Shown here: one piece after another, positions 41,572 to 46,251 of the stretch
How the letters are laid out: every line of letters begins with the position of its first letter
Position numbering within the stretch: the first letter of the stretch is position 1
NCBI GenBank assembly: GCA_025934695.1
Contig: JAICWS010000001.1
Span: 277,301 to 341,300, forward strand
DNA length: 64,000 nt
Direction: 5' to 3'
Source: Alphaproteobacteria bacterium
Lineage (GTDB): Bacteria > Pseudomonadota > Alphaproteobacteria > Micavibrionales > UBA2020
The notes under the pieces: generated by a model
Database searches by the model: none
The model's input: only the letters and a program-made list of their open reading frames with translations
Told to the model about the DNA's origin: nothing
Translations under genes and position numbers: made by a program

Positions 41572-41718
41572 ACATACCAACGTCAAATTTAAGGAGTAGT
41601 AAAATGGATAAGTTTCCATGCTTGGTAATCCATTTACCGCTTGGGCGGGTTCAAGGATTCGGCGAGATGTCGCAATGCGACTGCAAGCAGACCGTTCTTC
41701 TTTCAGGGAGCAATTAAT

Positions 41719-42498
41719 ATGCCGAAAGATTTTGATATTGGGAAACAATTCAATCGCGCCATGGGCAATGCTGTCGAAGCGGAGAAAGCACTTGCAGAAT
41801 GGGGTGTTCCCTTTCGCAGACAACCAAATGGCTCGCTTATAGTTGACGGAGATCTCGATATCTCCAGCAAGGGGCTGACCTCCCTGCCAGACCTTACGTC
41901 AGTCATCATCCAGGGAATGTTTCTCTGCAATTATAACAAGCTCACCTCGCTGCGTGGCGCGCCGCAAAACGTCGGGTCCTTCAGTTGCGAGGGCAACCAA
42001 CTCACAACTTTGGTAGGGGCACCGCAAAACGTCGGCGGGTCCTTCAACTGTTCCCACAACCAGCTCACGTCGCTAATTGGAGTGCCGCAGGTGATCGTCG
42101 AAAACTTCTACTGCACCTTCAATTTGTTGACTTCGCTGGAAGATGGCCCGTTGGCCGTGGGTCGCGATTTTCGCTGTGACTATAACCAGCTGACTTCCCT
42201 GAAGGGTGCTCCATCGTCATTTGTCGCGGGAGCTGTCACCTGCACGAATAATCCGCTGACATCTCTTGAGCATGCACCGCCGAAATTCCAGGTCCTGCAA
42301 AGCGACTTCGGCACCTTCAATTCATGGGACGACATACCCGAAAGACTGCGCACGTCCCCTGAAACGAAGGAACTGATAGAGCAGAGCCGTCGCGCAGCCG
42401 AAGAACATGCTATCGCGGAACGGGAAAGGTCAATCCATGATGCCACTGTTCTTGGCAGGCCAATCGGGGTTCAACGACCGCTTTCCTTCAAGGCATAA
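41719..42498 (+). CDS. LRR-like solenoid protein with LTSLxGAPxxVGxxFxCxxN repeats
   Basis: About 6-7 units of 20-22 aa. Confidence 0.8.
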   Translation: MPKDFDIGKQFNRAMGNAVEAEKALAEWGVPFRRQPNGSLIVDGDLDISSKGLTSLPDLTSVIIQGMFLCNYNKLTSLRGAPQNVGSFSCEGNQLTTLVGAPQNVGGSFNCSHNQLTSLIGVPQVIVENFYCTFNLLTSLEDGPLAVGRDFRCDYNQLTSLKGAPSSFVAGAVTCTNNPLTSLEHAPPKFQVLQSDFGTFNSWDDIPERLRTSPETKELIEQSRRAAEEHAIAERERSIHDATVLGRPIGVQRPLSFKA

Positions 42499-44120: not shown

Positions 44121-44673
44121 GCGCACCCTGCCCGGCGACAAGGCGACGCTGAAACGCGCCGACGATGTCGCCAGCATGATCCGCGTCGACCATGCCGGCG
44201 AATACGGCGCGAAGCGGATTTACGAGGGCCAGATGGCAGCGCTCGGCGATCATCCGAAGGCGAAGAAGCTGATCGAGCATATGGCGAAGCAGGAACAGGC
44301 GCATCTTGACTACTTCGAGAAGGAAATCGTGCGCCGTGGCGTGCGGCCCACGGCGCTCCATCCGCTCTGGCATCTGGCGGGGTATGCCTTGGGGGCGCTG
44401 ACCGCGCGCCTCGGCCCCGAAGCCGCCATGGCCTGCACTGTCGCGGTCGAAGAGGTTATTTCCGACCATTACGCCGAACAGCTGGCCGCGCTCGACAAGC
44501 AGCCGGAGGAAAAAGACCTTCGCGCCGCCATCAAAAAATTCAAGGCCGAGGAAGAAGAGCACCGTGAAACCGGCCGTAACTCCCATGCCGACAAGGCTCC
44601 CGGATATCGGCTGCTGACCGCCGTCATCCGGACCGGCTCGAAACTGGCCATCGAGATCGCAAAAAGGGTTTAG
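44095..44673 (+). CDS. coq7: Demethoxyubiquinone hydroxylase (Coq7)
   Basis: MIRVDHAGEYGAKRIYEGQ, EQAHLDYFE, VEEVISDHYAEQ, EEEEHRE di-iron motifs. Confidence 0.93.
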   Translation: MSKQRRKLKRTLPGDKATLKRADDVASMIRVDHAGEYGAKRIYEGQMAALGDHPKAKKLIEHMAKQEQAHLDYFEKEIVRRGVRPTALHPLWHLAGYALGALTARLGPEAAMACTVAVEEVISDHYAEQLAALDKQPEEKDLRAAIKKFKAEEEEHRETGRNSHADKAPGYRLLTAVIRTGSKLAIEIAKRV

Positions 44674-44838
44674 CGTCACGCGCTCAGACGCTCGGGGAGC
44701 CCCTTCCCTGTTTTTGACGAATTTCTCCGCCTTTCCAAAGACGTATCTCTGCAAAAATCACTTGCGTTATGGAAATATACATGATAAAGTCCCTGCCAAA
44801 AGCGTTCAAATCGCAAGCGTCAGAAGGTGTGTATTTCC

Positions 44839-46119
44839 ATGGCAAACAAGATCGAAACTATCACGCGGGACATCGCGTCCGGCGAAACCTTCAGGCATAA
44901 AGGCTCGGTTGACCTCAAAGGCAATGTCGGTGCCGGCGCAACCATCGAGATCGAGGACGGCGGCATCCGCATCAGCGGCGATGTGGCCGACAAAGCCAGC
45001 GTCACGGCAAAGGGACCCAAGGGCTCCTACGCGTCCATCTCGAGCAAGAATGGCACTGTCATCATTCGCGGCAATTTCTCCGGCGACATCGTCGGTGGCC
45101 GGATTATCAACGGCGACGAAGACCTGACGGGCATCGAAGTCTCGGGCAAGACCGGCAACGGCGTGAAATATAAAACCGACGCCTCCGTCGAGCTCAAGGC
45201 CCCTGCGGGCGATGACGTCTCTCTCGCCGCGGGCAGCAGCAGCTCGATCATTTCAGCAGGCGCGCGTTTCAAGGCGAAGGTGGACAGCAGCCTCGACGCC
45301 GGAAACGTCGGCCCGAACGCCCAGATTGAAACCGGCAGCTCGTCGACCGTCAAGCAACTGGGCCCGAACTCCACCTTCGAATGTGACAGTTCCGTCACCA
45401 TTTCCATCGCCGCCGACAAATGCACCATCACCGCGGGCAGCAGCTCGAAGATCGGCACGCTTGGCAAGGACTGCACCGCGAAGTGCGACAGCACCCTGGA
45501 CATCGGGACATCGGGAAACAATTGCACTTACAGCGCGGGCAGCAGCTCGAAGATCGGCACGCTGGGCGCGAATTCCACGGCGAAATGCGGCAGCTCCCTC
45601 GATATCGGCGCGGTCGGCGATCATTGCGCTGTTTCCTGCTCCAGCTCGTCGGAATTCAAGTCGCTCGGCAATGACGTGACCATCGACTGCGACAGCTCGG
45701 TCGAGATCGGGAAAACCGGCCTTCGCTGCAACATTACTTCCAGCAGCAGTTCGGAAATCAAGGAGCTCGGCCACAATTCGACCGTCAAATGCGACAGCAG
45801 TCTCGACATCAAGAAGGTCGGGCATGACTGCGTGATCGAAGCCAGCAGCTCGTCGGATTTCGGCACGGTCGGTGCGCGCACGAAAATCAGCGTCGACAGT
45901 TCCGCGGACGTGCGCCTGGCGCATGAAACGGCGCGCATCACCGCCGAAGGCAGTCTCGATATCAGCCGCCGCAGCGCGAATGACGCCGATTTCGGCCTGA
46001 GCCTGGATTTCGGCCCCGCCGCCGCACCCGGCGTCACGCCGGCAACCGCGCCTGCTGCGCCATCGTCGCCCGGCGTTCCGGCCTCTCCAAAGCCGAAGAG
46101 CAAGTGGAAGTTTTGGTAA
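44839..46119 (+). CDS. Ser/Cys-rich repeat (beta-solenoid-like) protein
   Basis: 16 consecutive 17-aa units, e.g. CTITAGSSSKIGTLGKD / CTAKCDSTLDIGTSGNN. Confidence 0.8.
   Translation: MANKIETITRDIASGETFRHKGSVDLKGNVGAGATIEIEDGGIRISGDVADKASVTAKGPKGSYASISSKNGTVIIRGNFSGDIVGGRIINGDEDLTGIEVSGKTGNGVKYKTDASVELKAPAGDDVSLAAGSSSSIISAGARFKAKVDSSLDAGNVGPNAQIETGSSSTVKQLGPNSTFECDSSVTISIAADKCTITAGSSSKIGTLGKDCTAKCDSTLDIGTSGNNCTYSAGSSSKIGTLGANSTAKCGSSLDIGAVGDHCAVSCSSSSEFKSLGNDVTIDCDSSVEIGKTGLRCNITSSSSSEIKELGHNSTVKCDSSLDIKKVGHDCVIEASSSSDFGTVGARTKISVDSSADVRLAHETARITAEGSLDISRRSANDADFGLSLDFGPAAAPGVTPATAPAAPSSPGVPASPKPKSKWKFW
45166..45981 (+). repeat. 51-nt coding tandem repeat, 16 units
   Basis: Unit register checked against codons: 16 x 51 nt = 816 nt, in frame. 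Confidence 0.85.
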
Positions 46120-46251
46120 AAATCCCTTCGTCCGCTATTTATAAGCATCTGTGATTGCTTGTCTTTTTGACAAGAAATTAACTTTTCCTTTGCCGCCTCC
46201 CAAGGGAAGTGGTAATATGGATAATATAAAAAAGGATAGAGGGGGAATATC

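Follow-up and report, generated by a model that had tools for sequence, protein, structure and literature searches.

The gene at 44839-46119 of the window (the whole stretch of 64,000 nucleotides analysed) encodes a member of an unnamed bacterial family related to MinC and FapA. The protein is built mainly of tandem 17-residue units, and the turn residue at column 7 of these units is nearly invariant within a protein and varies between proteins (14 members, registered units). The gene and its parts are arranged as follows:

44839..46119, + strand: repeat-protein gene, 426 aa, with the same start codon as in same-genus relatives
44822-44827, + strand: AGAAGG, a Shine-Dalgarno-like sequence upstream of the repeat-protein gene
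44860..45012, + strand: MinC_C-like head, residues 8-58 (hhalign, Foldseek and profile search)
45013..45216, + strand: Gly/Ser-rich insertion, followed by another segment of the head that contains the first degenerate 17-aa unit (pLDDT and alignment)
45166-45216, + strand: first degenerate 17-aa unit, KYKTDASVELKAPAGDD, within the second head segment
45217..45930, + strand: core array of 14 units of 17 aa, residues 127-364, column 7 being Ser in 14/14
45931..45981, + strand: degenerate C-terminal cap unit, ARITAEGSLDISRRSAN, with the Gly of column 7 retained
45982..46116, + strand: disordered tail with an Ala/Pro-rich middle part and a terminal KSKWKFW
44664..46174, no strand: segment carrying the repeat-protein gene and missing from the sister genome G001 (blastn of the flanks, intergenic reading and gene order)

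The original prediction, made from the sequence alone, placed sixteen uninterrupted 17-aa repeats at 45166-45981, and these coordinates were exact: the region spans 816 nt, or 16 x 17 codons free of indels, inside the ORF 44839-46119, and comprises 14 clear units plus one degenerate unit at each end. Self-identity of the array was 0.289 at lag 17, 0.385 at lag 34, and 0.40 at lag 68, with peaks at lags 17, 34, 51, 68, 85, and 102 and higher values at even multiples; none of 2000 shuffles of the same residues gave more than 0.17 at lags 5 to 59. The super-period of 34 aa, also predicted, was confirmed by these lags and by permutation of the unit order (p = 0.0004), odd units approximating GSSSxI or SSSSxI and even units DSSLDI, so that GSSS-type and DSSL-type units alternate. 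Mean DNA identity between units was 0.48, and Tandem Repeats Finder detected no repeat in the array DNA because the units are not repetitive enough at this level. Higher values were found for units 5 and 7 (82%) and units 6 and 8 (67%); the 34-aa block of units 5-6 and 7-8 looks recently duplicated, units 5 and 7 being the sole such pair. Unit 14, just before the C-terminal cap unit, carries an AH that is conserved in the family.

Modeling of the window protein with AlphaFold2 (3-sequence alignment) returned a confident beta-solenoid with two strands per coil, the fold that had been proposed for the repeats with an AlphaFold model as its check. In the model pLDDT was mostly 90-98 in the core array and mostly >90 over residues 141-340, low at residues 60-72 and 88-95, and <50 in the tail from residue 378 onward. 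Each unit was predicted to have one strand at columns 2-5 and another at 8/9-14, with turns at 6-7 and 15-1. A relative with 45% identity and 7 units, likewise modelled from only 3 sequences, gave the same solenoid picture. AlphaFold2 is prone to overprediction, producing confident yet unrealistic solenoids for near-perfect repeats (PMC11795689); since the window units are divergent and not near-perfect, this caveat is lessened, not removed. Hydrophobic columns 3, 11, and 14 and small residues at column 5 fit a core, and charged residues lie mainly in outward or turn columns. On the basis of the models, the array is very likely a beta-solenoid. No solved structure matched at E <= 0.001 in Foldseek; the high-probability matches were short, of about 52-54 columns, and were to MinC C-terminal domains.

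The head is homologous to the C-terminal beta-helix of MinC. Comparison of the head with MinC_C by hhalign gave a probability of 70 and 38% identity over 42 columns, head residues 11-53 aligning to the first half of MinC_C in a partial match of about 45 residues. Foldseek probabilities against MinC were 0.85-0.89 (0.89 for 4v02_D), and the predicted head superposes on MinC at 1.7-2.3 A over 52-54 columns. On the window protein MinC_C (PF03775) scored 12.4 bits, below the Pfam cut-off of 33.2, and MinC_N had no Pfam match; among genuine MinC matches in other genomes MinC_N was mostly present. MinC_C is the dimerisation and MinD-binding domain (PMC6771821, PMC6803595), and MinC binds MinD through an RSGQ motif (PMC6803595). 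This motif is not kept, as the window protein reads IASGE and the aligned site AxGE or AxGQ, with the Gly preserved and the Arg lost. Because the RSGQ residues are missing, a MinD-like partner is a lead only. The window protein thus shares the beta-helix core of MinC_C, but differs from MinC in having no MinC_N, a replaced RSGQ, and a long solenoid behind the head.

The repeats are closest to FapA (PF03961, DUF342-type), which was the best Pfam match of the window protein at 26.1 bits (cut-off 31), strongest over residues 155-239. PF03961 was matched by 6/13 family members, and hhalign of the repeats against FapA gave a probability of 80 over 33 columns. However, true FapA proteins have FapA_N, which had no Pfam match on the window protein, and their repeats are irregular while the window units are exact 17-mers. 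A Pfam match to a characterised repeat family over the whole region, which would have spoken against an undescribed family, did not turn up, the sub-threshold FapA match being the nearest; none of the family models of Pfam, NCBIfam, and PHROGs covers the window protein. The proposal of an undescribed family therefore holds as far as family models go, but the fold is not isolated, given a head homologous to MinC_C and repeats that come closest to FapA. Of the affinities suggested for an HHpred-type profile check, FapA was recovered by hhalign and bactofilin was not (probability 0.5), MinC_C being found as well.

Profile and sequence searches recovered full-length or near-full-length relatives, both within the genus and throughout the order (family profile E 2.2e-84), with about 17 other repeat-bearing members in the same order. 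The family architecture, as present in the window protein, consists of a head, tandem 17-mers with the turn motif at columns 6-8, an AH cap unit, and a flexible tail. The window protein has 14-16 units, its nearest relatives and genus 6-7. Profile matches were obtained in 30/142 genomes of the order, 4/385 of a class sample, and 9/399 of a phylum sample, the own genome being counted in each; the phylum search matched 8 genomes besides the own, and the 6 matches checked with Pfam were MinC (4) and FapA (2). Two same-genus relatives (SCTB01000048.1 and JADYYV010000125.1, from metagenome-assembled ‘Alphaproteobacteria bacterium’ genomes; L054 and L055) were found by a genome-contig scan with the same-genus alignment, and the same type of scan with the window protein alone as query found no relative. 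Three scans of viral contigs found none either, and a phage origin was rejected, with a single weak PHROG match (E 0.0032). A search of 135 genomes of the order gave no MinC_C. The family contributes a domain architecture of MinC/FapA type to this order, in which MinC went undetected.

The tree of heads was weakly resolved (2/17 branches starred), with moderate support (82/90) for pairing the window gene with that of G001. Head-only, lipoprotein-like relatives are more widespread than repeat-bearing members. Two are encoded in the own genome (G000:C2:293992-294381 and G000:C3:1086783-1087148; L064 and L065), each sharing only the MinC_C-like head and, behind a hydrophobic leader, a Cys; comparable proteins are present throughout the family (L016, L017, L022). 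Outside the order, a 594-aa protein of the same class (L057, G151) combines a head-like stretch with AGK-type coils such as GDNANINAGKLTAESVG and is a distant relative.

Column 7, the turn residue, is nearly constant within proteins and is the position at which members differ as blocks; the original prediction had not picked it out as a ladder. It is Ser in all 14 core units of the window protein, Gly in G001 and G003, His in G033, G036, G030, and most of G133, Asn in G022a and G027, and Arg in G130a; it alternates between His and Leu in G129 and G130b and between His and Phe in G128, and is mixed in G002 (G,G,G,G,S,T,G). In a ten-member set the within-protein identity at column 7 was 0.82 versus a shuffled null of 0.18 +- 0.03 (z = 20), the unit registers being hand-anchored on the turn motif, which sets the frame and does not itself yield uniformity at this column. 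Column 8 came next with z = 8, every other column stayed at or below about 5, and columns 1-3, 11, and 13-17 showed no within-protein excess. In one genome (G130) two family genes lie side by side (L115:6288-7979), one with the Arg and one with the alternating His/Leu ladder; the ladder residue is therefore set per protein, not per cell. Another genome also holds two adjoining family genes, one regular and one irregular (L118:6296-7798, G022).

Two histories could explain this uniformity. Identity at four-fold sites between units was about that expected from composition in most members, i.e., synonymous sites are near saturation, and simple DNA homogenisation, recent duplication, or gene conversion is therefore not the explanation. 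Recent copying of whole units is likewise disfavoured, because the excess is not common to all columns and synonymous sites. Repeat turnover, in which unequal crossing-over regenerated the array of each lineage from one or two founder units and ordinary purifying selection at the turn then preserved column 7, would make the uniformity a by-product, and we regard it as possible though doubtful. It agrees with the 82% identity of units 5 and 7, with four-fold identity above expectation in the window gene (0.54 vs 0.41) and G003, and with the different array lengths of members. However, it does not sit well with the lack of excess at the columns listed above or with the mixed column 7 of G002. 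In addition, unit 2 of the window protein, FKAKVDSSLDAGNVGPN (LDAGNVGPN, DSS), and unit 2 of G001, LKANSGGSLEAGNIGPN (LEAGNIGPN, GGS), are, by their sequences, clear positional counterparts with different ladder residues. The Ser codons at column 7 of the window gene are all AGY, one transition away from Gly GGY. Because the excess is limited to few columns, the unit 2 counterparts differ, G002 is mixed, and the codons are so related, we prefer repeated substitution at column 7 over replacement of the array. Coordinated substitution and older turnover with purifying selection are not cleanly separable, and both may have acted.

The window gene sits between coq7 and a gene for an exported protein. 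In the sister genome G001 these two are adjacent, about 110 nt apart, while the homologous flanks in the window are about 1.5 kb apart with the window gene inside. The own genome contains a second family member of 220 aa at a distance of 150 kb (L107:6915-7577, G000:C3), whose neighbours, named by sequence inspection, are small heat-shock protein, NUDIX-type, and ABC exporter genes. As these neighbours match those of the family gene in G002 and G003, the site of the 220-aa paralog is taken as the ancestral locus. Its turns read GHD, AGS, KGS, EGL, and DFF, the uniform ladder at column 7 is lost, and the paralog is possibly relaxed or repurposed. Since the site in G001 is empty, the paralog occupies the ancestral locus, and relatives have 6-7 units versus 14-16, the window gene is an extra copy, moved or inserted behind coq7, whose array grew to about twice the usual length. 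No shared partner gene was found in the neighbourhoods of the family.

The explanation that accounts best for these results, and in which we have middling confidence as a whole, is a solenoid rod or scaffold with a swappable ladder; we infer its fold, location, assembly, and purpose. The protein would form a rod-shaped beta-solenoid of about 16 coils, each of 17 residues and two strands, with a MinC_C/FapA-type beta-helix head as N-terminal cap and, at the C-terminal end, a flexible tail bearing a short basic-aromatic motif. It is probably cytoplasmic, as no signal peptide is visible. Molecules might dimerise or join end to end via their heads and associate laterally along the rod, and the tail may dock the rod to a partner or membrane, giving a scaffold. 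The turn residues at column 7 would stack as an axial ladder of a single residue type, whose uniformity would be maintained by selection acting on stacking or self-association. Parallel substitutions affecting most units (Gly to Ser in the window gene), together with some array duplication, would have swapped the ladder chemistry between lineages. Gly ladders, which have no side chains to stack, are present in close relatives, and the rationale of side-chain stacking is weakened for this reason. A MinC_C-type head, a long rod, a flexible tail, and no visible signal peptide together suit an intracellular, self-associating rod, scaffold, or filament best, and this is our best guess; in view of the lack of a conserved partner gene, the scaffold role rests on analogy.

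An exported or surface protein (an adhesin, an ice-active protein, or a type I secretion substrate), with the C-terminal tail as export signal, appears unlikely. In most relatives the tail ends in a basic plus aromatic or hydrophobic motif (KPGFNL, PKRGFTL, KNRFDIF, RNFDIM), and this conserved-looking end would suit such a signal, as would the lipoprotein-like appearance of the head-only relatives, ABC exporter genes within about 7 kb in three lineages, and PDB fold matches to ice-binding proteins and adhesins, all of them weak. However, the tail is basic and no signal peptide was visible by eye in the N-terminus MANKIETITRDIASGETF, in agreement with the original prediction. The recurring ABC exporters are different genes in different lineages (31-48% identity), with none at the window gene, and the 12 Cys of the array suggest a reducing compartment. 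Thr occupies both columns 2 and 4, in the TxT style of ice-active proteins, in one unit only. An ice-nucleation protein was rejected since TxT is not present on each coil. Bacterial ice-nucleation proteins are 16-residue beta-solenoids that resemble the window protein in a long regular array with outward repeated side chains (PMC9418140), but the latter has 17 residues per unit, no TxT array, and different ends.

Within the rod reading, column 7 might also act as a self-recognition code, such that a rod pairs only with rods of like ladder. Lineages, or neighbouring paralogs such as those of G130, would then switch code by coordinated substitution across the array, which would allow orthogonal filaments in one cell; this is a speculative extension to which we assign little probability. 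The family represents a natural set with closely similar heads and coils, in which a single stacked position has been exchanged as a block and is now Ser, Gly, His, Asn, Arg, or an alternating pair. It therefore allows a direct test of the role of a residue ladder in the stability, assembly, and specificity of a solenoid, and lets one ask how a repeat protein alters the same residue in every repeat.

A metal-binding ladder formed by the Cys columns, suggested on the ground that Cys recurs at fixed positions 1 and 5, is improbable. All 12 Cys of the window protein do lie in the array, and some are in adjacent coils (column 5 of units 8-10, column 1 of units 5-7). However, Cys occupies each column in 6 units only (elsewhere S/V/T/A/F at column 1, A/V/T/S at column 5), and at column 5 it is nearly confined to even units. 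Columns 1 and 5 alternate with the outward columns 2 and 4 and are therefore predicted to face the core. Relatives have 0-6 Cys, the near relatives G001, G003, and G005 0-1. The metal ladder is thus not supported, because the Cys columns are predicted to be core-facing, their residues are exchangeable, and relatives contain few Cys.

Even less credible is a bactofilin or bactofilin-derived cytoskeletal polymer. The style is similar, as bactofilin (PF04519) is a short-coil beta-helix with disordered ends and no signal peptide, and the own genome encodes a separate bactofilin, so the lineage uses such polymers. The profiles show no similarity, however: the hhalign match covered 7 columns, PF04519 had no Pfam match on the window protein, and no bactofilin was among the 50 best PDB fold matches listed. 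The link made in the original prediction is, at the level of profile comparison, largely refuted. As bactofilin is present in 121/135 genomes of the order and the profile comparison gave a probability of 0.5, the family is an addition to bactofilin and not a version of it. DNA mimicry is known for beta-helices of comparable size, as in the pentapeptide-repeat family, but no result here points to mimicry of the kind seen in its gyrase inhibitors, the array is near neutral (32 acidic and 26 basic residues) and lacks a pentapeptide period, and this reading can practically be dismissed.

Like the family described here, the Knotted Solenoid of Brevundimonas is a lineage-restricted beta-solenoid with function unassigned (PMC13123833). 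Going by the published description, we judged the two to be different groups, the nearest unknotted kin of the Knotted Solenoid being pentapeptide-repeat proteins (PMC13123833). A further repeat protein, with no Pfam match at E 0.01, is encoded elsewhere in the window (41716-42498, + strand) and has leucine-rich-like units of about 21 aa, LTSLxGAPxxVGxxFxCxxN.
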